DNA of 15,804 bases, taken from Lentimicrobium sp. (GTDB lineage: Bacteria; Bacteroidota; Bacteroidia; Bacteroidales; Lentimicrobiaceae). The stretch is from assembly GCA_013336205.1 (NCBI GenBank), contig JAAXUD010000013.1, forward strand, positions 1 through 15,804. The letters are read 5' to 3'. The notes below the pieces were generated by a model. It was not told the origin of the DNA and did not search any database. It saw nothing but the letters and a program-made list of their open reading frames with translations. This document shows, piece after piece, positions 4,668 through 15,804 of this stretch (within the stretch, counting starts at the first letter, position 1; each line of letters starts with the position of its first letter). Position numbers and translations under genes: made by a program.

Positions 4668-6146
4668 ATGATTTCATTAACTGACCACATTGTTAATCCT
4701 GCTGCAAGGCAGAAAGCCATTGAGCGTTTCCGCGAAAAAGGAATTGTATTGCCCACCTTTGCCCAGATGAGAAATCCGGAACTGGTGCCCGAAAAAATTA
4801 AAGAAAGCCTTAAAAATATTGGCCTTTGGGACCTTCACCCGGCCAACCTTTTCAGGATTACCTGGAAAAATGAGCCTGTTGAAAAAGGCGGTTTGTTTGG
4901 AGGTGTAAATTATATTGAAATCCCGGAAGCGATTAGCGGTGTCAAAACCCGGATTATCATGCTCATTGGAAAATACTTCCCCACGGGTGCCCATAAAGTT
5001 GGAGCCGCTTATGGATGCCTTGCTCCGCGCATTATCAGCGGCGAGTTTGACCCATCATATCACAAAGCGGTGTGGCCTTCAACAGGAAATTATTGCCGGG
5101 GCGGAGCCTTCGATTCTTACCTGATGGGCGTTACAGCTGTTGCTATTCTTCCGGAGGAAATGAGCAAAGAGCGCTTTTCATGGCTCAGGGATATCGGCGC
5201 TGAAGTAATTGCAACGCCCGGCTGCGAATCAAACGTGAAGGAGATTTATGATAAATGCTGGGATATCCGTCGCAACCGACCCGATTGTGTAATTTTTAAC
5301 CAGTTTGACGAGTTTGGAAATCCCACCTGGCACTACAATGTTACCGCTCCTGCAATTGAAGAGGTATACAATTCCGTTAAATCGGCAAACAGCCAGCTGG
5401 CTGCCTATGTTTCAGCTACCGGGTCAGCCGGCACCATTGGCGCAGGAGATTATCTGAAGAAAATTCATCCACACATGAAGATTGTAGCTTCGGAAGCACT
5501 CCAGTGCCCAACCTTGCTTAACAACGGATTTGGCGGACACCGGATTGAAGGCATCGGCGACAAGCATGTCCCCTGGGTGCACAATGCCCGGAATACCGAT
5601 ATGATCACCGCCATTGACGACGAGGATTGCATGCGTATTTTCAGACTGTTCAATGAACCGGAAGGATTGGCTTACCTGAAATTGTGCGATGTAGACCCTT
5701 TGCTGGTTGACAGGCTTAACCTGCTGGGCATCTCCTGCATCGCCAATATGCTTTCAGCCATTAAAACCGCGAAATATTATGAAATGACCAGCGACGATGT
5801 GGTGATTACCATCGCAACCGACTCGGCTGAAATGTACACATCCCGTTTGTCAGAGCTTACGGAAGAAAAGGGGACTTATAGTGAGTTGCAGGCAGCCAAA
5901 GACATGGAAAAGTGCATACTGGGCCAAACCACCGACCACCTGAAGGAGTTGACCTATTATGATCGCAAAGCCATTCACAACCTGAAGTATTTTACCTGGG
6001 TTGAACAACAGGCCCGGGAAATCGAAGATCTGAACCAATTGTGGAATGACAGAAATATCTGGGAGCAACAGTTTAACCAGGCTGCGCGCTGGGATGAGAT
6101 GATAGAAGAGTTTAATGAGGAGACAGGGGTGTTGAAGAAGATGTAA
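4668..6146 (+). CDS. Fold-type-II PLP-dependent enzyme, TrpB/cysteine-synthase-like, reaction unknown
   Basis: The 492-residue product has the hallmarks of fold-type-II PLP enzymes. The candidate Schiff-base lysine is K110 in PTGAHKVGAA, the S-T-G-N loop is at 138-141 (STGNYCRGG), and a glycine-rich phosphate loop is at 252-261 (GSAGTIGAGD). Other conspicuous motifs are CPTLLNNGFGGHRIEGIGDK (280-299) and ATDSAEMYTSRL (383-394). A helical, aromatic-rich C-terminal extension of about 90 residues makes it longer than tryptophan synthase beta or cysteine synthase. I recall similar proteins from anaerobic Firmicutes annotated only as PLP-dependent protein, beta subunit. It is not YgeX-like: it lacks the roughly 400-residue layout and the motifs of diaminopropionate ammonia-lyase. 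Position between ygfK and xdh suggests a step acting on an amino acid released from the purine ring; this is inference. The track-style TTG start at 4647 is rejected because it overlaps the -7 element. Confidence 0.85.
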   Translation: MISLTDHIVNPAARQKAIERFREKGIVLPTFAQMRNPELVPEKIKESLKNIGLWDLHPANLFRITWKNEPVEKGGLFGGVNYIEIPEAISGVKTRIIMLIGKYFPTGAHKVGAAYGCLAPRIISGEFDPSYHKAVWPSTGNYCRGGAFDSYLMGVTAVAILPEEMSKERFSWLRDIGAEVIATPGCESNVKEIYDKCWDIRRNRPDCVIFNQFDEFGNPTWHYNVTAPAIEEVYNSVKSANSQLAAYVSATGSAGTIGAGDYLKKIHPHMKIVASEALQCPTLLNNGFGGHRIEGIGDKHVPWVHNARNTDMITAIDDEDCMRIFRLFNEPEGLAYLKLCDVDPLLVDRLNLLGISCIANMLSAIKTAKYYEMTSDDVVITIATDSAEMYTSRLSELTEEKGTYSELQAAKDMEKCILGQTTDHLKELTYYDRKAIHNLKYFTWVEQQAREIEDLNQLWNDRNIWEQQFNQAARWDEMIEEFNEETGVLKKM

Positions 6147-6223
6147 AGAATTTCTAATGTCTAATTTCTAATTTCCAAATTCCATTTTCCAATATTGGAT
6201 TGTGGATTTCAATTTCATTTCTT

Positions 6224-6272
6224 CATTCGTCATTCGTCATTCGTAATTCGTCATTTGTCAATCGTCATTCAT
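6224..6272 (+). repeat. Seven tandem heptamers (consensus CATTCGT) directly before a start codon
   Basis: Seven 7-base units lie in register from 6224 to 6272. The first three are CATTCGT exactly, and the other four differ by one base each (A at position 1; T at 5; A at 3; A at 6). The units end at TTTCACATG, where ATG is the start of the next gene. The preceding part of the 132-base gap (6150-6223) is also low-complexity, with repeated TCTAATT-like and TTCCA-like words, and no terminator is seen. The same family occurs in the opposite orientation at 10079-10309 and in this orientation at 10774-10801. Confidence 0.85.
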
Positions 6273-6278
6273 TTTCAC

Positions 6279-7523
6279 ATGGCAAACAAATTCACCTATC
6301 AATGCAGCGATTGCGGCAAGCAGATTCCGGCCGGCGGCATTGTTTATACCTGCCCGGATTGCAGAGCAAAACAACAACCGGATCAGCCTCCGCTGGGCAT
6401 ATTAAGGGTTGTTTATAATCGCGATTTAATCGGAAACCGGTCCTTCACTGCTTTACAGGGAAATCAGTTCCTTGAACTACTGCCATTGAATAACCTGCAA
6501 AGCCTGCCCAATCTGAGGACAGGAAATACGCCTCTGTATGAAATAGAAAAGCTGGATGGAATCCCTTTAGATCATTTGCTTTTCCTGAAAGACGATTCGC
6601 AAAATCCGACTTTTTCATTTAAAGACAGGGCTTCTGCAATTGTCTCGGCGTTTGCCAGAGAGAACGGTATTGACACCATTGTTACGGCCTCAACGGGAAA
6701 CGCGGGCTCTTCACTGGCAGGAATTTGCGCTGCCCAGCGTCAGAAGGCGGTGATTTTTGTTCCGGCAACGGCACCAAAAGCCAAGCTGACCCAGATTCTG
6801 ATGTATGGAGCCTTGCTGGTTCCGGTAGATGGAAATTACGACAAAGCCTTCGACCTCAGCATTGAAGCCACCGAAAAATATGGCTGGTATAACCGCAACA
6901 CAGCCTATAATCCTTTGACAATCGAAGGCAAAAAAACGGTCTCCTTTGAACTTTTTGGCCAGATGAATCAGCAACTTCCCGACAGAATCTTCGTTCCGGT
7001 TGGCGACGGCGTGATTATTTCAGGTGTTTATAAGGGATTTGAAGATTTGCTGAACCTGGGAATTATTGAACAGATGCCGGTTATTGTTGCTGTTCAGGCC
7101 GAAGGAAGTTCTAATATCATTGACAATCTGGACCAAAAAGTATTTCACACCTCCCCTTCTTCAACCATTGCCGACAGCATATCGGTTGACATACCCCGCA
7201 ACTTCCGGATGGCGGCTGATTATTTGATGAAATACAAGGGCGAAACGGTGAAAGTGTGTGACACTAAGATACTCGAAGCCTCTTCCATCCTGGCCAGGAA
7301 TACCGGAATATTTACCGAACCAGCGGCTGCGGCAGCCTTTGCGGGATACCTGTCATTCCGGCAAGCCAATCGTTTGCCGGATGACTCACGCAATGTGGTG
7401 CTACTTACCGGTAGCGGCCTGAAAGACCTGAACGCTGTGCAGACATTGCTGGATATTCCGGCAGCGGTAAAATCCGACATGGCTTCAGTGGAACTGTTTT
7501 TAAAAGGAAAAATACAGGCTTAA
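6279..7523 (+). CDS. Threonine-synthase-like PLP enzyme with N-terminal zinc ribbon
   Basis: The 414-residue product begins with a zinc-ribbon-like motif (C9, C12, C25, C28), as in one class of threonine synthases. A fold-type-II PLP domain follows: the candidate Schiff-base lysine K115 is in PTFSFKDRAS, the S-T-G-N loop is at 138-141 (STGNAGSS), VPVGDG at 239-244 lies in the phosphate-binding region, and LLTGSGLKD is at 375-383. It resembles ThrC, but no homoserine or threonine biosynthesis gene is nearby. Its stop codon directly abuts the xdh ATG (TAAATG), so the two are probably translationally coupled. A catabolic role on a small amino acid from the purine pathway, such as a beta-elimination or beta-replacement, is inferred; true threonine synthase activity cannot be excluded. 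An upstream ATG at 6195 would add 28 residues encoded mostly by the heptamer repeat, so the ATG at 6279, just before the zinc-ribbon, is chosen. Confidence 0.85.
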   Translation: MANKFTYQCSDCGKQIPAGGIVYTCPDCRAKQQPDQPPLGILRVVYNRDLIGNRSFTALQGNQFLELLPLNNLQSLPNLRTGNTPLYEIEKLDGIPLDHLLFLKDDSQNPTFSFKDRASAIVSAFARENGIDTIVTASTGNAGSSLAGICAAQRQKAVIFVPATAPKAKLTQILMYGALLVPVDGNYDKAFDLSIEATEKYGWYNRNTAYNPLTIEGKKTVSFELFGQMNQQLPDRIFVPVGDGVIISGVYKGFEDLLNLGIIEQMPVIVAVQAEGSSNIIDNLDQKVFHTSPSSTIADSISVDIPRNFRMAADYLMKYKGETVKVCDTKILEASSILARNTGIFTEPAAAAAFAGYLSFRQANRLPDDSRNVVLLTGSGLKDLNAVQTLLDIPAAVKSDMASVELFLKGKIQA

Positions 7524-10079
7524 ATGATACAATTCAGACTGAACGGCGAAACAATATATTTTGACGGCAAACCGGAAACCAGGCTGCTGCAATTTCTGAG
7601 ACTTGAAAAGAAGATCACCTCGGTAAAAGACGGATGTTCCTGCCAGGGAGCCTGCGGCGCCTGCATGGTTGAGATCAACGGGGAAGCAAAACTGTCGTGC
7701 ATGACTCCCCTTGCGAAACTTGAAAATGCCAATGTAAATACGCTCGAAGGAATTCCCGATGAAATCAGGGATGTGATTGCCACGGCTTTCGTGGAAAAAG
7801 GCTCCGTACAGTGTGGGTTTTGCACGCCCGGGTTCCTGATGCGGACAAAAATTCTATTGCAGAAAAACCCCAATCCTACCCGTGAAGAGATCAAACAGGC
7901 GCTCACTTTGAACCTCTGCCGGTGCACTGGTTATGTGAAAATTATTGACGGAATTGAAGAGGCCGCCATCCGGTTATCCTTGAAAAATGAGTCTGACAAG
8001 CCGGAAATTCCCGGACACGTCGGAACTTCCTACCCAAAATATGAAGCGTATGAGATGGCCGTTGGTCAACGAAAGTTTGTGAACGACCTGGAATTTAATG
8101 GAATGCTTTATGGCGCGTTGCTGTTTTCGGAACATCCGAGAGCCGTTGTAACTGAAATAGATACGAAAGTTGCAGCAGAACTACAAGGCGTTATCCGGAT
8201 ATTTACTGCCGATGATATTCCCGGCGATCGCTATGTCGGACTTATATATAAGGATTGGCCGCTGATGGTCGGCATAGGCGAAACCACCCGGTATATCGGC
8301 GATGTATTGGCCGGCGTTGTTGCTGAAACAGAAGAAATAGCGCGGCAGGCCGCCCGGCTGATCAAAGTTGTTTACGAAGTACTTGAACCTGTTACCGATC
8401 CGCACGAAGCAATCAAACCCGGCGCTTCACCGGTCCATTCCCATCATGACAACCTGCTGGAAACCTGCAAAGTATACAGAGGAGGCCATGCTGATGAGAT
8501 CATCACCGGTTCTGCTTTTGTAGCATCAGGAATTTACCAGACCCAACGCATCGAACATGCCTTTCTCGAAACAGAAGGTGCGATAGCAATGCCTGACAAG
8601 GACGGAATACATCTCTACTCCAATGGCCAGGGCATATACGTTGACCGCAAACAGGTTGCCTCCGTCCTCGGATTGCCGGATGAGAAAGTCAGGGTTACCC
8701 TGGTTTCAACCGGTGGTGGCTTCGGCGGCAAGGAAGATATGACCGTGCAGGGACATGCCTCCCTCTTTGCCTGGTTATTGAAATGTCCTGTCAAAGTGAT
8801 TCTCAACAGGGATGAATCCATCCGCATGCATCCCAAACGGCATCCGGTTTATATGGATATGAAAGTTGGCTGTGACGAAAACGGAATGCTGACCGGTTTG
8901 AAACTCTACGCGGTGGGTGATTCCGGCGCTTATGCTTCGGTCGGCACCAAGGTTATGGAGCGGGTGGCCGGACATGCAACAGGGGCCTATCATTTCCCCT
9001 GCGTAAACCTTGAAGCCCTCACGGTTTATACCAACAATATCCCCAGCGGAGCCATGCGCGGTTTTGGAGCCAACCAGGTCGGCTTTGCACTCGAAGGTTG
9101 TATCGACGACCTCTGCAAACAGGGAAATTTCGACCGCTGGCAATTCCGCTTCAACAATGCCCTGACTGAGGGCAAAATGACTGCGACAGGTCAGGTGTTG
9201 AAAGGAGGCGTAGGTGTCAGAGCATGCCTTGATGCCATAAAACCATACTATGATAATGCACGGATAAAAGGCCTGGCCTGTGGCATCAAAAACAGCGGCG
9301 TTGGCAATGGCATGGCCGATTTCAGCGATGTGATCATTGAAATTATTTCAGAAAACGAAGTGCACCTTCAACATGGCTGGACTGAAATGGGACAAGGCGT
9401 ACACACCATTGCCCAACAGGTGCTTTATCAGGAAACAGGCATCTCGCCAGCCATCGTTAAGGTTACGGTGGATTCCTCCGCTGGCATCCCAACCGGCATG
9501 ACCACCTCGTCCAGGGCAACCGCTTTGCTGGGCAATGCCATCCTCGATGCCTCAAAACAGATCCGGGAGGATCTGAAAAGTCATTCATTCAAAGAACTCG
9601 CCGGTAAAACCTATAAAGGAACTTATTCTTACGACCTGACAACAAAACCCGGCGCGGATGTGAAGGATATCATCACCCATTTTGCCTATGGCTATGCTAC
9701 GCAACTTGTAGTTCTGGACGAAAGCGGCAAAATAGAAACTGTTTACGCTGCCCACGATGCCGGAAAAATCATGAATCCGCTTATGTTTGAAGGTCAGGTA
9801 GAAGGCGCTGTGCACATGGGACTGGGATATGCCTTATCGGAAGACCTGCCGATGGTTGACGGGCACCTTGTTTCCACAAAAATGCGCGATCTAAAAATCT
9901 TACGGGCAAAGGATATGCCTGAAGTTGTGGTGTTGGGTGTGGAAGTCAAAGATCCGGTTGGCCCTTACGGCGCCAAAGGATTGGGCGAAATCGGACTGGT
10001 TCCGACTGCAGCAGCAGTGGCGAATGCGATGTGGGCGTGGGATGGAAAGAGGAGGTTTGAGTTACCCCTGAAGAAATGA
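7524..10079 (+). CDS. xdhD: Selenium-dependent-type xanthine dehydrogenase/molybdenum hydroxylase (fused Fe-S and Mo domains)
   Basis: The 851-residue product starts with a plant-type 2Fe-2S domain (cysteines 38, 40, 44, 47, 59) and the all-helical second 2Fe-2S domain (C97, C100, C132, C134 in QCGFCTPG and LCRCTGY). From about residue 170 it is a xanthine dehydrogenase/aldehyde oxidase molybdenum domain: GGGFGGKED at 397-405, MRGFGANQ at 511-518, EMGQGVHT at 621-628, and GAKGLGEIG at 816-824 carrying the probable catalytic glutamate E822. No FAD domain is present, and no FAD subunit gene (ygfM/coxM type) is nearby. The length and the ygfK/ssnA context fit the selenium-dependent xanthine dehydrogenase family. 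These enzymes hydroxylate purines such as xanthine or hypoxanthine at a Mo centre with a sulfur or selenium ligand; the substrate here is inferred. No in-frame UGA selenocysteine is expected, since the selenium is in the cofactor. Named xdhD by neighbourhood and layout. Confidence 0.9.
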   Translation: MIQFRLNGETIYFDGKPETRLLQFLRLEKKITSVKDGCSCQGACGACMVEINGEAKLSCMTPLAKLENANVNTLEGIPDEIRDVIATAFVEKGSVQCGFCTPGFLMRTKILLQKNPNPTREEIKQALTLNLCRCTGYVKIIDGIEEAAIRLSLKNESDKPEIPGHVGTSYPKYEAYEMAVGQRKFVNDLEFNGMLYGALLFSEHPRAVVTEIDTKVAAELQGVIRIFTADDIPGDRYVGLIYKDWPLMVGIGETTRYIGDVLAGVVAETEEIARQAARLIKVVYEVLEPVTDPHEAIKPGASPVHSHHDNLLETCKVYRGGHADEIITGSAFVASGIYQTQRIEHAFLETEGAIAMPDKDGIHLYSNGQGIYVDRKQVASVLGLPDEKVRVTLVSTGGGFGGKEDMTVQGHASLFAWLLKCPVKVILNRDESIRMHPKRHPVYMDMKVGCDENGMLTGLKLYAVGDSGAYASVGTKVMERVAGHATGAYHFPCVNLEALTVYTNNIPSGAMRGFGANQVGFALEGCIDDLCKQGNFDRWQFRFNNALTEGKMTATGQVLKGGVGVRACLDAIKPYYDNARIKGLACGIKNSGVGNGMADFSDVIIEIISENEVHLQHGWTEMGQGVHTIAQQVLYQETGISPAIVKVTVDSSAGIPTGMTTSSRATALLGNAILDASKQIREDLKSHSFKELAGKTYKGTYSYDLTTKPGADVKDIITHFAYGYATQLVVLDESGKIETVYAAHDAGKIMNPLMFEGQVEGAVHMGLGYALSEDLPMVDGHLVSTKMRDLKILRAKDMPEVVVLGVEVKDPVGPYGAKGLGEIGLVPTAAAVANAMWAWDGKRRFELPLKK

Positions 10080-10357: not shown

Positions 10358-10726
10358 ATGAGTATTGAGAAATTGAAGCAGCGGTATAAAGATTTTGCGA
10401 TTAAAGTTGCTGAATTGATTCGAGAATTGCCGGTGAACAATATCAATAACCCTTATTGCAACCAGCTCATTCGTTCGTCGAGTTCAGCGGCTGCAAATTA
10501 CCGGGCGGCATGCCGGGGAAAATCAACTTCGGATTTTATCAATAAACTTAAAATTGTTGAAGAAGAATTGGACGAGGCAATTTTTTTTCTTGAATTACTA
10601 GCCCACTTCAATTCCGGATTTAAGGAGAAAATCATACTTATGATAAATGAAGGCAATGAACTGCTTGCTATTACCGTTCAATCAATAAAGACCTCCAGAC
10701 TTAATCAAAATCCAAATAAAAAGTAA
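10358..10726 (+). CDS. Four-helix-bundle protein, 23S rRNA intervening-sequence (S23/IVP) family
   Basis: The 122-residue product is almost wholly helical. It carries the family signature NQLIRSSSSAAANYRAA at residues 35-51, then a charged helix KLKIVEEELDEAIFFLELL (63-81). This family was first seen encoded in intervening sequences of 23S rRNA genes, and it is related in fold to Avd, the accessory protein of diversity-generating retroelements. A nucleic-acid-binding, pentamer-like bundle role is known only for relatives; the function here is unknown. It interrupts the purine operon, and repeats of one family in opposite orientation flank it (10079-10309 and 10774-10801). That suggests insertion as a cassette. 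It is unlikely to act in purine breakdown. The start at 10358 is the first in-frame ATG and matches the usual beginning of the family. Confidence 0.88.
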   Translation: MSIEKLKQRYKDFAIKVAELIRELPVNNINNPYCNQLIRSSSSAAANYRAACRGKSTSDFINKLKIVEEELDEAIFFLELLAHFNSGFKEKIILMINEGNELLAITVQSIKTSRLNQNPNKK

Positions 10727-10818: not shown

Positions 10819-12081
10819 ATGTCAATCTTCTTAACCAACGGCACATACATCGATTCTGAAACACTGGAATTCACCAAAACGAATATTCTGGTTGAAGAAG
10901 GAATCGACGGAAAAATCATCCTGACTCAGGATACACAAACTGTCGCGGAAGACAAGGTGATCGACTGTTCAGGAAGATACATCACCCGTTCCTTCGCCAA
11001 CGGTCATCACCACGTTTATTCAGCATTGGCCCGCGGAATGGGAGCTCCAAAGAAAAACCCGGAGAACTTCGAAGAGATTCTGCAATATGTGTGGTGGACG
11101 CTCGATAAGGCCCTTGACCCGGCGATGATCCGCTCCAGCGCGCTGGTCACGGCCATGGCCTGCGCCAAAAACGGAGTCACTTTTGCCATCGATCACCATG
11201 CTTCTCCAAATTCAGTTAAAGGTAGCCTTGAAATTATTGCGCAAGCCTTTGATGAAGTTGGCGTCGGCCATTTACTGTGCTATGAGATTTCAGACCGCGA
11301 CGGACTGGATATCGCGCAAAAAGGCCTGGAGGAAACAGCTGACTATCTCTCAAAAAGACAAGGACTGGTTGGACTACACGCTTCTTTCACCGTTGGGGAT
11401 GAAAGCCTGAAACAAGCAGTAGCCCTGGCCAGAGAAACAAATTCCGGCATTCACATCCATGTGGCCGAAGATCTTTCGGATGAAGCCCATTGCCTGGAAA
11501 CCTATCATTCACGGGTTGTTGACCGCCTTGCAAAGGCCGGCGTACTCAACTTCCCGAAAACCATCCTCGGCCATTGCCTGCACCTGGACAACTACGAGCG
11601 TAAGCTGTTGGAGAATTCTCCGGTTTGGGTTGTGCAGAATATGGAAAGTAACCTGAACAATTCAGTAGGTCTTTTCAATTCTATGGGATTGAGCGAACGC
11701 ATTATGCTGGGTACCGATGGCATGCACAGCGACATGCTCCGGAGCGCCAAAGCAGCCTTCTTTGCAGGTCATACGTTCGATTCCATTGACTATGTAGAAT
11801 CTTACCGACGCTTCAGAAACGTTCACAATTACCTGAATTCCAATAACTTCAAAGGTGATGGCGATAACAACCTGGTGGTACTTGATTACGACACACCTAC
11901 CCCATTTAACAGCAGTAACTTTTTAGGTCATTTCCTTTTCGGGCTGGAGTCAAAACATTTACAGCATGTGATTGCCAGGGGCAAAATCATTGTAGAAAAC
12001 GGGAAGTTAACCACTGTCGATGAGGATAGAATTCTGAAAGAAGCGCGGGTTCAGGCGGAACGTCTCTGGTTAAAAATGTAA
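10819..12081 (+). CDS. ssnA: SsnA family amidohydrolase
   Basis: The 420-residue product is a metal-dependent amidohydrolase of the SsnA type, a family tied to ygfK and selenium-dependent hydroxylases. Metal ligands seen are H63 and H65 in NGHHHVYSALARG, H214 and E217 in IHIHVAEDLS, H252 in GHCLH, and D300 in MLGTDGMHSD. Substrate is not established for the family; deaminase or ring-hydrolase action on a purine product is likely from its relation to guanine and atrazine-type deaminases. E. coli SsnA is about 440 residues. Here the usual PG before the first metal motif is RSFA, and the G-x-L-x-x-G-x-x-A-D-L stretch before VVLDY is replaced by a short NNFKGDGDNNL (342-352), explaining the shorter length. 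It follows the repeat cassette by 17 bases and has no clear promoter of its own. Confidence 0.9.
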   Translation: MSIFLTNGTYIDSETLEFTKTNILVEEGIDGKIILTQDTQTVAEDKVIDCSGRYITRSFANGHHHVYSALARGMGAPKKNPENFEEILQYVWWTLDKALDPAMIRSSALVTAMACAKNGVTFAIDHHASPNSVKGSLEIIAQAFDEVGVGHLLCYEISDRDGLDIAQKGLEETADYLSKRQGLVGLHASFTVGDESLKQAVALARETNSGIHIHVAEDLSDEAHCLETYHSRVVDRLAKAGVLNFPKTILGHCLHLDNYERKLLENSPVWVVQNMESNLNNSVGLFNSMGLSERIMLGTDGMHSDMLRSAKAAFFAGHTFDSIDYVESYRRFRNVHNYLNSNNFKGDGDNNLVVLDYDTPTPFNSSNFLGHFLFGLESKHLQHVIARGKIIVENGKLTTVDEDRILKEARVQAERLWLKM

Positions 12082-12163: not shown

Positions 12164-12787
12164 ATGGATATCAGTATATTACAATGGGTAGGATACCTTG
12201 CCTCCGTTATCATCGCCGCCTCAATGACCATCAATTCCATCCTGAAATTCAGATGGATAAATCTTGCGGGGGCCGTCACGTTTTCAACTTATGGATTTCT
12301 AATCGGGGCACTTCCGGTTGGATTCCTCAATGGGTTTATCGCTTTTGTTGATATTTATTACCTCTATTCCATTTATTCGAAAAAAGAAGTTTTTGAGATC
12401 CTGGAAGTCAGGGCCGACAACCGTTACCTGATGCGTTTTCTGCAATTTCACGATAAGGATATTCAGAAGTTTTTCCCTGGGTTTGCCTATAAGCCTGAGA
12501 TGAATACCGTCAGTTTCTTTATTCTCCGCGATATGGCCGTTGCCGGGATTTTTCTGGCCCATCGTGAGAAAGAGCATTGCCTGGTGGTCGGACTGGATTA
12601 TGTTTTACCTGAATACCGCGACTTTAAAAACGGCAAATTTATCTACCTCAGGCTTCGGGACCGCTTTATTGGCGACGGTTTTAAAAAAGTAATTGCTGAA
12701 GGAAGCAGTGAAAAGTACACAACCTATCTTAAGAAACTCGGTTTTTCGCCCAATCAGGAGGGGTTATATGAAAGGGAACTTTATTAA
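12164..12787 (+). CDS. Membrane protein: YgjV-like N-terminus fused to a GNAT-like domain
   Basis: The 207-residue product has three hydrophobic segments (about residues 7-27, 31-50 and 53-69) in a pattern like the YgjV inner-membrane family, with I-L-x-F-R-W-I-N-L-A-G following the first. A soluble domain from about 75 to 207 looks like an acetyltransferase of the GNAT fold: strands around FFILRDMAVAGIFLA and CLVVGLDYVLPEYRDF, then a helix and TYLKKLGFSPNQEGLYERE at 187-205, the usual end of GNAT proteins. The acyl-CoA loop is not a clear Q/R-x-x-G-x-G/A, so activity is uncertain. It may be a sensor or transporter-associated protein. It sits between ssnA and hyuA on the same strand, probably cotranscribed with hyuA 48 bases on. 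No role in purine use is known. Confidence 0.75.
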   Translation: MDISILQWVGYLASVIIAASMTINSILKFRWINLAGAVTFSTYGFLIGALPVGFLNGFIAFVDIYYLYSIYSKKEVFEILEVRADNRYLMRFLQFHDKDIQKFFPGFAYKPEMNTVSFFILRDMAVAGIFLAHREKEHCLVVGLDYVLPEYRDFKNGKFIYLRLRDRFIGDGFKKVIAEGSSEKYTTYLKKLGFSPNQEGLYERELY

Positions 12788-12835
12788 CCGTATCATTCTG
12801 ACAAAAAATAGCCTTATTTGTATAAATTTACCTCT

Positions 12836-14158
12836 ATGGAGTCGAAATTAATCCTCAACGGCACCCTGATAAATGCCGGATTCATCCTAAAGGCTGACCT
12901 GCTGGTTACCGATGGAAAAATAGCAGCCATTGATGATAACCTTCAAAATCAGAATCCTGATTCTGATTTTATTGATGCTACCGGCAAGCTGATTTTCCCG
13001 GGGGGTATCGACCCGCATGTTCATTTTGCATTGCCCACGCCAGCTGGCCCTTCGTGCGATGATTTCCTCAGCGGAAGCCGGGCTGCCATTGCCGGTGGCA
13101 CTACTTTTTTTATGGATTTTGTAACACCCGGCAGAGGGCAATCCCTGCAGGAAGCACTTGAATACAGGCTGAAAGAAACCGCTGAAAGTCAGCTGGAATG
13201 TGGCCTTCACATGGGCATTACCTGGTATGATGAAACCATTCCGGAACAGATGTGCTGGTGCGTGAAAGAAGCCGGTATCAGCTCTTTTAAGGCATACCTG
13301 GCTTACAAAGGCAGCATCGGCATTGAATATTCCGAATTGGAACAGGTGATGAAAACCGCAGCAAGTCTGGGCGCTGTGGTTTTGGTGCACTGCGAGGAAG
13401 GAGATGACATCCTGACAAAGCAAAAGGAATTCCTGAAACAGGGGAAAACAGCTCCGGTTTATCATGCACTGTCACGTCCTGCTGAAACGGAAGCTGAATC
13501 AGTAAGGAAAGTGGTTGACCTTTGCCGGAAAACAGGCTGCCGCACCTACATCGTTCACACTTCTGCAGCTCAGTCGATTGAATATATCCGGCAAGGGAAA
13601 AAGGAAGGTCTGCCGCTCTATTGTGAGACCTGTCCCCAGTATCTGCTGCTCGATGAAAGCGTCTATCAAAAACCTGCTGCTGAGTCATTGAAATATGTAA
13701 TCAGCCCGCCCATCCGCAGCAAAGCGGATCAGGACTCCTTGTGGCTGGCCGTGCAGGATGGCACCATGGATGTAATCTCCACCGATCACTGCCCGTTCAA
13801 CACGCTTGGGCAGAAAAACCAGGGCATGCACGATTTTACGAAAATTCCCAATGGGGCCGGAGGCGTGGAGCACCGCTTGAAACTCATTTATACTTATGGT
13901 GTGCTGACAGGAAAAATTAGCCTGCAGCAGTTTGTCGCATTAACATCAACCAACGCTGCTAAGATTCTCGGGCTTTATCCCCGGAAAGGCGAAATAGCGG
14001 TAGGTTCTGATGCCGACCTGGTGATCTGGGACCCGGATTTCAGCTCCGTAATTTCTGCTGAAAACAATATACAGACGTGCGATGAGGATATATTTGAGGG
14101 GATGGATGTGAAAGGAAATGCCTGGAAAGTAATAATCAACAGGGACCCTTTACGATAA
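12836..14158 (+). CDS. hyuA: D-hydantoinase/dihydropyrimidinase family amidohydrolase (HyuA)
   Basis: The 440-residue product has all ligands of the dinuclear-metal cyclic amidohydrolases: H61 and H63 (DPHVHF), the lysine that becomes carboxylated K152 (SSFKAYLAY), H185 (VLVHCEEGD), H241 (YIVHTSAAQS) and D317 (VISTDHCPFN). These enzymes open five- or six-membered cyclic amide rings such as hydantoin and dihydropyrimidine; in the ygfK/ssnA set HyuA is linked to purine-ring breakdown. It is slightly shorter than the 460-residue E. coli HyuA, mainly at the C-terminus. The open frame begins at an earlier ATG (12818), but the ATG at 12836 gives MESKLILNGTLI, the family start. The phosphatase follows after 17 bases and is probably in the same transcript. 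The natural substrate is inferred. Confidence 0.92.
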   Translation: MESKLILNGTLINAGFILKADLLVTDGKIAAIDDNLQNQNPDSDFIDATGKLIFPGGIDPHVHFALPTPAGPSCDDFLSGSRAAIAGGTTFFMDFVTPGRGQSLQEALEYRLKETAESQLECGLHMGITWYDETIPEQMCWCVKEAGISSFKAYLAYKGSIGIEYSELEQVMKTAASLGAVVLVHCEEGDDILTKQKEFLKQGKTAPVYHALSRPAETEAESVRKVVDLCRKTGCRTYIVHTSAAQSIEYIRQGKKEGLPLYCETCPQYLLLDESVYQKPAAESLKYVISPPIRSKADQDSLWLAVQDGTMDVISTDHCPFNTLGQKNQGMHDFTKIPNGAGGVEHRLKLIYTYGVLTGKISLQQFVALTSTNAAKILGLYPRKGEIAVGSDADLVIWDPDFSSVISAENNIQTCDEDIFEGMDVKGNAWKVIINRDPLR

Positions 14159-15095: not shown

Positions 15096-15804
15096 TCAAA
15101 GTATTCTCCTTTTTCCTGAATTATAAAGACTCTCCAACACTTCCGCCGCATTGCTGAACTTATTGTTCAGAATCATTGCCGCAATTATGTATGGCTTGTA
15201 ACCGGCCTCCTTGTATGTTTCAATCCGGTAGCGCTCAAACACGCTGGCCGCGACTTCGCCCTCTTTGCACGAAATATCTGAAATATCGGCCGGCAGACAA
15301 TGCATATACAGCGCTTTACCGCTTTTGGTCAGTTTCATTTTCTCTTCGGTGCATTCCCAGTCTTTAAAACGGGCATTGTTGGCCAGACATTCCTGCTCCA
15401 GCGATTTCAGGCCCTCTTTGTCGCTGTTCTTAAGCAGATCGGTGCGGCGCTGCATCACGGCAAACGGTGCCCAGCTTTTGGGATAAACAATGTCTGCATT
15501 TTTAAAGGCTTCATCCATGCTGTTCACTACCCTGAATTTTCCGCCGGAAACAGCGGCCTGTTTGCCGGCCATTTCAACAACTTCAGGAATAAGCGTGTAA
15601 CCTTCCGGATAGGCCAGATCCACCTCCATCCCGAAACGGGTCATTAGTCCGATGATACCCTGCGGCACCGAAAGCGGTTTGCCATAACTTGGCGAATAGG
15701 CCCAGGTCATCGCGATCTTCTTTCCCTTCAGGTTTTCAAGTCCTCCGTAATAATTGACCAGGTGGAGCAGGTCGGCCATGGACTGGGTCGGATGGTCGAT
15801 GTCG
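15096..15804 (-). CDS. ygeW: Knotted carbamoyltransferase YgeW, C-terminal part (truncated by window edge)
   Basis: The visible 235 residues run off the right edge; the full family length is about 396, so about 160 N-terminal residues are missing. The visible part begins DIDHPTQSMADLL, the H-P-x-Q region that binds carbamoyl phosphate in aspartate/ornithine carbamoyltransferases. Y-x-x-S-Y-G-K-P-L follows within TWAYSPSYGKPLSVPQG. Further on, MHCLPADIS (159-167 counting from the Met at 15779) is the H-C-L-P motif. These and the context match YgeW, a carbamoyltransferase with unknown amino substrate that is tied to ygfK, ssnA and hyuA. It is on the opposite strand, so it is a separate transcription unit whose promoter is outside the window. 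In the purine scheme it may act in reverse to recover carbamoyl phosphate and hence ATP; this is inference. Confidence 0.9.
   Translation of the reverse strand, partial: DIDHPTQSMADLLHLVNYYGGLENLKGKKIAMTWAYSPSYGKPLSVPQGIIGLMTRFGMEVDLAYPEGYTLIPEVVEMAGKQAAVSGGKFRVVNSMDEAFKNADIVYPKSWAPFAVMQRRTDLLKNSDKEGLKSLEQECLANNARFKDWECTEEKMKLTKSGKALYMHCLPADISDISCKEGEVAASVFERYRIETYKEAGYKPYIIAAMILNNKFSNAAEVLESLYNSGKRRIL

Follow-up and report, generated by a model that had tools for sequence, protein, structure and literature searches.

How does the anaerobic breakdown of uric acid end in a gene cluster that has no ygeX, the gene for the last enzyme of the pathway in Escherichia coli? The reductive uric acid pathway was worked out only in 2025. 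According to Li et al. (2025, PMC12507026), XdhD of E. coli converts uric acid to yanthine, YgfK dearomatizes yanthine, SsnA, HyuA, YgeW and YgeY follow, and YgeX finally cleaves 2,3-diaminopropionate to pyruvate. A commentary counts among the open questions the stereochemistry and the order in which the ureido groups are cleaved (Percudani 2025, PMC12990295). Here we analyse a stretch of 15,804 nucleotides from Lentimicrobium sp. (contig JAAXUD010000013.1 of assembly GCA_013336205.1; hereafter the window), which is contig C845 of a genome bin (4.1 Mb, 89.75% complete). Between ygfK and xdh it encodes two unrelated proteins of the pyridoxal phosphate (PLP) type, PLP1 and PLP2, in the order that a preliminary description of this DNA had given, and PF00291 is found in both.

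4668..6146, + strand: PLP1, fold-type-II PLP protein of 492 amino acids (aa), ATG start; PF00291 (PALP); clade adjoining CysK/CysM
4995..4997, + strand: Lys110 of PLP1, in PTGxHKVG, presumed to form the Schiff base; the same in all 30 sequences aligned, matches the CysK lysine in position
6279..7523, + strand: PLP2, threonine-synthase-superfamily PLP protein of 414 aa, ATG start; PF00291 (PALP); TIGR00260 181.6 bits, above the cut-off of 167
6621..6623, + strand: Lys115 of PLP2, in FKDRAS, presumed to form the Schiff base; the same in all 32 sequences aligned

The window is a Bacteroidota form of the anaerobic reductive uric acid cluster, and its arrangement is a new variant of an already known pathway. 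PLP2 probably takes over the YgeX step, to judge from sequence and distribution, and PLP1 would be a separate, additional enzyme at the amino-acid end of the pathway. What is added here to the known pathway is a recurrent swap of the last lyase, together with one very conserved extra enzyme, and the work touches both questions raised in the commentary (PMC12990295).

Exchange of PLP2 and YgeX

Neither protein is a YgeX, as had been predicted: PLP2 scores 39.4 bits against the YgeX family model TIGR03528 (cut-off 532), and PLP1 is not among the matches listed. The possibility that ygeX lies elsewhere in the genome, named beforehand as decisive, was checked, and no match at or near the cut-off was found in the 89.75% complete bin, whose best matches are PLP2 itself and a CysK at 22 bits.

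First, both genes follow the pathway among 119 genomes of the same order (118 genera), in which we found PLP1 in 27, PLP2 in 27, SsnA in 30, YgeW in 27 and YgeX in 4. For SsnA, 38 of the 119 genomes matched at an E-value of 1e-50, and eight genomes scoring under 230 bits were dropped as paralogs, the next group starting from 302. PLP1 shares 25 genomes with SsnA, with two holding PLP1 only and five SsnA only (Fisher 1.4e-18); for PLP2 the corresponding numbers are 26, one and four (Fisher 5.9e-21; neither test is corrected for kinship). PLP2 thus occurs in 26/30 SsnA genomes versus 1/89 others, and YgeX in 3/30. The co-occurrence that the preliminary description proposed to score is therefore present for both proteins. 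Among the 30 SsnA genomes, 25 have PLP2 without YgeX and two, G242 and G288, have YgeX without PLP2. The PLP2 matches of G232, G252, G260 and G305 contain in-frame stops, and a class-wide sample, with PLP1 in 1/217 genomes, was too thin for use.

Second, PLP2 and YgeX largely exclude each other among genomes that carry PLP1. Fifty such genomes were hand-picked, not randomly sampled, from 80 loci (the best 80 of 580), with 30 loci, the window's nearest relatives among them, left out. PLP2 alone is present in 36, YgeX alone in 10, both in one (G367) and neither in three, so that 46/50 have exactly one of the two (Fisher 2.9e-7 for the exclusion, uncorrected for kinship and for a hand-picked sample). 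G354's is a partial match among the 11 to YgeX, and nine of the 11 are in the tree; G375 of this set is the same genome as G242 of the order sample, the same contig appearing as L076 and L086. Seven of the ten YgeX-only genomes are labelled Aminicenantes, Acidobacteriota, Spirochaetota or SAR324, one Thermus/Deinococcus group and two Bacteroidota (G336, labelled Marinifilum, and G375). UASB270 has PLP2 too, as do two bins that carry the labels Aminicenantes (G356) and Spirochaetes (G367). With PLP2 spread across phylum labels in this way, kinship alone seems not to explain the exchange, although bin labels can err.

Third, the exchange extends to gene position. G242 has the order ygfK-PLP1-ygeX, with YgeX in the place of PLP2, whereas UASB270 has ygeY-PLP2-ygeW-PLP1 and G367 has ygfK-ssnA-ygeY-PLP2-amidohydrolase-ygeW. 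G288 lacks both PLP genes, keeps ygfK-xdhAC-ssnA-orf207-hyuA in the order of the window and encodes elsewhere a YgeX that has 48% identity to that of E. coli. PLP2 and YgeX share the fold-type-II PLP family PF00291 and, in some clusters, the same place; they differ in that PLP2 lies far below the TIGR03528 cut-off (39 against 532 bits), sits on the threonine synthase branch and lacks the Asp of the TDGNHG motif.

By distribution, position and residues, it is well supported that PLP2 would be a recurrent non-orthologous replacement of YgeX. The preliminary description had proposed a two-enzyme replacement, of which half stands: PLP2 alone fits the role, whereas PLP1 is also found with YgeX (11/50 PLP1 genomes). 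Because PLP1 turns up with PLP2 as well as with YgeX, it does not qualify, in the simple sense, as one half of a substitute for YgeX.

Several observations weigh against this assignment of roles. Of the SsnA genomes, G304 combines PLP2 with a YgeX-like protein, and G281 and G299 have neither PLP2 nor YgeX; in G367, PLP2 is accompanied by a canonical-type YgeX whose contig differs in GC, which may reflect faulty binning. PLP1 is missing from four of the 26 genomes with SsnA and PLP2 (G260, G273, G285 and G304) and hence is not strictly needed; this also limits the earlier view of the pair as a unit, of which it holds that both genes follow the pathway. Conversely, G256 has PLP1 but no SsnA, YgeW, PLP2 or YgeX at the thresholds used. 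Genome bins may, moreover, be incomplete or mixed.

PLP2 and threonine synthase

PLP2 forms a separate clade adjoining threonine synthase (ThrC). In line with the zinc-ribbon, threonine-synthase-like protein of the preliminary description, the paired CxxC motifs (C9, C12, C25 and C28), of zinc-ribbon type, are the same in all 32 sequences aligned, among them that of the window, and the protein passes the family test of TIGR00260 (181.6 against a cut-off of 167.1 bits). Compared with solved ThrC enzymes (PDB 1uim, 6cgq, 2zsj and 2c2b), PLP2 has the CxxC pair in addition and departs at several otherwise characteristic positions. The Arg of NPxRxEGQKT is present in 4/4 solved short-type ThrC, to which this comparison is confined, and absent in 15/15 PLP2 sequences (14 Thr, 1 Leu). 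In the same 15/15, GNAGN of ThrC is GDG and the Thr of ATAI is Asp (ADSI), so that two Asp positions are gained relative to ThrC. We take the Arg to be the residue that binds the substrate phosphate in ThrC; a site that has lost a base and gained acids would accommodate a cationic substrate, for instance diaminopropionate, better than a phosphorylated one.

Could PLP2 nevertheless be the organism's ordinary threonine synthase, which happens to sit in a purine operon? Its TIGR00260 score would allow this, and in 21/27 PLP2 genomes PLP2 is the sole ThrC match over the cut-off, which also counts against the role proposed here. The own genome, by contrast, has a separate ThrC (295.7 bits, compared with 182 for PLP2) on contig C618, where a homoserine dehydrogenase match is also found. 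Among the 21 PLP2 genomes without a separate ThrC (defined as a second match over the cut-off; that of G263, at 107.9 bits, falls below), homoserine dehydrogenase is lacking in 13 and present in eight, and in those eight PLP2 could double as ThrC. In controls, homoserine dehydrogenase was found in 10/10 chosen ThrC-positive genomes and 2/9 ThrC-negative ones, but the test is not clean: two of the six PLP2 genomes with a separate ThrC (G243 and G300) lack a match as well. A ThrC match is present in 44/92 genomes without PLP2. With PLP2 in a clade of its own, its Arg lost, and its occurrence tied to SsnA as described above, an ordinary threonine synthase is very unlikely. The candidate of PLP2 as a plain ThrC was rejected on the separate ThrC of the own genome, the distribution of homoserine dehydrogenase and the lost Arg.

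The exchange between genomes and the residues together suggest that PLP2 would eliminate ammonia from 2,3-diaminopropionate, yielding pyruvate and ammonia, with its lysine probably its only base. Lys77 and Asp120 of E. coli YgeX are, we assume, the catalytic residues, and PLP2 has Thr at the position of Asp120.

PLP1 as a probable additional enzyme

The length of PLP1, 492 residues, is as first described, but its assignment as TrpB-like does not hold: its top family matches, its matches among solved structures and its place in the tree are all of the CysK/cystathionine beta-synthase (CBS) type. In the tree, PLP1 is a separate clade adjoining CysK/CysM, with N- and C-terminal extensions of its own. 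The grouping with CysK/CysM is supported at 100/95 with TrpB (one sequence, on a long branch) outside it, and a TrpB-like identity was rejected accordingly. PLP1 differs from its nearest branch, with which it shares the fold, in its length, in HK at the lysine (presumably a motif of TrpB), in STGNYCRGG for TSGNTG and in GIGDKH for GIGAGF; it scores 119.1 bits against the CysK model, under the cut-off of 350.95. The tree asked for in the preliminary description thus places the PLP1 and PLP2 clades apart from biosynthetic ThrC, TrpB and CysK. The nearest named relatives of PLP1 (best 80 of 580) are Bacteroidota metagenome-assembled genomes, the first a Lentimicrobium at 90% identity. Homolog searches covered the best 120 of 8000 each, all close relatives, and did not reach distant named relatives of PLP1. 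YgeX structures were not among the 50 rows listed for either model in a structure comparison, which is uninformative on kinship, and the fold comparison pointed to no function for PLP1 or PLP2.

The neighbourhoods of PLP1 were counted at 99 distinct loci (the window and three repeated contigs left out; many contigs short; open reading frames and gaps called mechanically). At least one of YgfK, XdhAC, SsnA, HyuA, YgeW and YgeY lies within 12 kb in 76/99, and PLP2 is present in 61/99. The next same-strand gene within 1.5 kb after PLP1 is PLP2 in 49 of the 84 loci with 1.5 kb of room. In bins from several phyla, PLP1 has ygeW, ygeY, hyuA, ssnA, ygeX or PLP2 as a neighbour, and YgeX is beside it in L070, L076 and L079. 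The other 23 loci, several of them on short contigs, have no core gene within 12 kb, and at some loci the neighbouring genes could not be linked to the pathway. The arrangement is not a chance one. In 23/99 loci a regulator of the Lrp/AsnC type (one member was checked for its family) is divergent from PLP1, which would suit an amino-acid effector.

These neighbourhoods bear on two roles for PLP1 other than the one we favour. PLP1 might eliminate urea from albizziin (2-amino-3-ureidopropionate), which would make both YgeY and the diaminopropionate lyase dispensable. In L008, L049, L064, L079, L082, L083 and L119, however, PLP1 still has YgeY and a lyase nearby, so that no step looks bypassed, and this shortcut is unlikely. 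PLP1 might instead stand outside the carbon pathway and mobilise sulfur or selenium for the Xdh cofactor. XdhAC is of the selenium-dependent type, and in G256, which has no SsnA, YgeW, PLP2 or YgeX at the thresholds used, PLP1 belongs to an operon for a molybdenum hydroxylase and comes after an accessory gene of the XdhC type; yet L029, L041, L047, L057, L072 and L079 have ygeW, ygeY, hyuA or ygeX near PLP1 and no xdh match in the examined stretch. Such a cofactor role seems quite improbable.

We favour a PLP1 that works alongside either PLP2 or a YgeX and, at a guess, most likely prepares the substrate, be it by converting the D and L forms of diaminopropionate or albizziin into each other or by some other reaction on one of the two. 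Tentatively, the pathway might have a second, widespread ending in which PLP1 works with a partner that can be exchanged, PLP2 or a YgeX group, either as a relay or towards a product other than pyruvate. If so, an enzyme of the CysK branch and its partner would act on diaminopropionate or albizziin, for example by racemization followed by elimination.

A specific relay of this kind, possible but doubtful, would have D-diaminopropionate made by the pathway, racemized by PLP1 and finished by an L-specific lyase, PLP2 or a second YgeX group; a canonical YgeX acts on both isomers and so would need no PLP1. Li et al. (2025, PMC12507026) call HyuA D-stereospecific and describe the YgeX of E. coli as acting equally well on both isomers, and the commentary treats the configuration as unsettled (PMC12990295). 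The Thr of PLP2 in place of Asp120 fits a relay, as does G288, which keeps the gene order, has neither PLP1 nor PLP2 and encodes a canonical-type YgeX elsewhere. In the tree, eight PLP1-associated YgeX proteins separate from those of E. coli, G288 and G367, a weak split (87/86, not starred) that is roughly what a relay would predict. Homologs of PLP1 and PLP2 (39% identity) are also adjacent in a cluster that looks UacX-type. Against this, TDGNHG and the lysine are kept in 8/8 aligned YgeX, and the four of these that are companions of PLP1 keep both catalytic residues, which weakens the idea of a racemase; loss of the D-isomer base in PLP1-associated YgeX was accordingly rejected. Further, PLP2 occurs without PLP1 in the four genomes named above, G367, whose YgeX is canonical-type, also carries PLP1, and PLP1 lies on the CysK branch, in a tree whose sequence set leaves out serine racemase.

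Some PLP1 loci have features of their own. Conserved near ygeX-PLP1 in L070 and L079 are a CN_hydrolase, whose best model, N-carbamoylputrescine amidase, stays below its cut-off, and an M20 hydantoinase/carbamoylase-type amidase (TIGR01879, over cut-off). In L167 (G347:C37), a PLP2-PLP1 pair, 39% identical in each case, ends a cluster in which xdh subunits stand with genes resembling HyuA and SsnA and with one resembling dihydroorotate dehydrogenase (named by eye), as in UacX clusters; the bin mixes contigs of 56% GC, L167's own, and 40%, and the host is uncertain. In L087 (G256), PLP1 (59%) shares an operon with a molybdenum hydroxylase, a further subunit-like protein, a DUF4213/DUF364 protein, an XdhC-type protein and an 8-oxoguanine-deaminase-type amidohydrolase. 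In L019 and L021, a TRZ/ATZ-type amidohydrolase (441 aa) precedes PLP1, with one gene between in L021, and an uncharacterised protein of 675-682 aa follows it.

The surrounding cluster

Rightward from position 741, the window reads MocA-type gene (- strand, divergent from ygfK), ygfK, PLP1, PLP2, xdhAC, a 23S-rRNA-intervening-sequence protein, ssnA, orf207, hyuA, a calcineurin-type phosphatase and ygeW (- strand), which is cut by the contig end.

741..1346, - strand: MocA-type, molybdenum cofactor cytidylyltransferase-like protein, 201 aa; TIGR03310 109 bits (below the cut-off of 186), PF12804 99 bits
1399..4623, + strand: ygfK, flavin/Fe-S reductase, 1074 aa; TIGR03315 940 bits (above the cut-off of 835)
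7524..10079, + strand: xdhAC, fused Fe-S/molybdenum hydroxylase, 851 aa; TIGR03311 885 bits (above the cut-off of 830)
10819..12081, + strand: ssnA, amidohydrolase, 420 aa; best families PRK07203/SsnA (379 bits, cut-off 444) and TIGR03314 (335 bits, cut-off 455.5), both under cut-off
12164..12787, + strand: orf207, conserved cluster protein, kept between ssnA and hyuA in relatives
12833..14158, + strand: hyuA, D-hydantoinase/dihydropyrimidinase, about 441 aa; TIGR02033 494 bits (above the cut-off of 393)
15096..15803, - strand: ygeW, carbamoyltransferase cut by the contig end; TIGR03316 402 bits (cut-off 500) over the C-terminal 233/391 positions

For the early steps, YgfK and XdhAC exceed their family cut-offs and SsnA is the best family of its gene, though below cut-off; XdhAC would reduce uric acid to yanthine. 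For the later steps, HyuA exceeds its cut-off and YgeW, truncated, reaches 402 bits. No ygeY is present in the window (the own genome was not searched for YgeY), and relatives on longer contigs, such as L008, L082 and L119, add ygeY beside ygeW. The window has ygfK, xdh, ssnA, hyuA and ygeW in common with the cluster of E. coli and Clostridioides difficile (PMC12507026), and close relatives such as L008 also share ygeY after ygeW; the window differs from that cluster in PLP2 and PLP1 instead of ygeX, in the fused XdhAC and in the lack of YgfM. PLP2 recurs in place of ygeX across genomes, which fits the earlier suggestion of a distinct version of the pathway. The cluster is patchy, the sole same-genus genome sampled (G221, 96% complete) having no match to PLP1, PLP2, SsnA or YgeW.

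The main text of Li et al. (2025, PMC12507026) does not name Bacteroidota (0 occurrences of 'bacteroid'; phylum list). YgeX was called in their survey by PF00291, a family that cannot separate YgeX from PLP1 or PLP2, so the survey would count both as YgeX. In a non-exhaustive literature search, judged by titles and the starts of abstracts, no paper was found on PLP1 or PLP2 in this pathway.

As had been noted, PLP2 is coupled to xdhAC, the stop of one and the start of the other being read as TAAATG. The two genes are adjacent in 41 loci, the window counted, and overlap by 4 nt in 21 of these. The protein between xdhAC and ssnA (10358-10726) is of the 23S-rRNA-intervening-sequence type (PF05635, 38.5 bits). 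Searches with Pfam and NCBIfam profiles gave no match to orf207 at an E-value of 0.001; the protein is 62-85% identical among many relatives, in which it stands between ssnA and hyuA, and its N-terminus looks membrane-bound by eye. The gap between PLP1 and PLP2 (6150-6275) contains short direct repeats, seen by eye, of TCATTCG-like and TAATTTC-like units.

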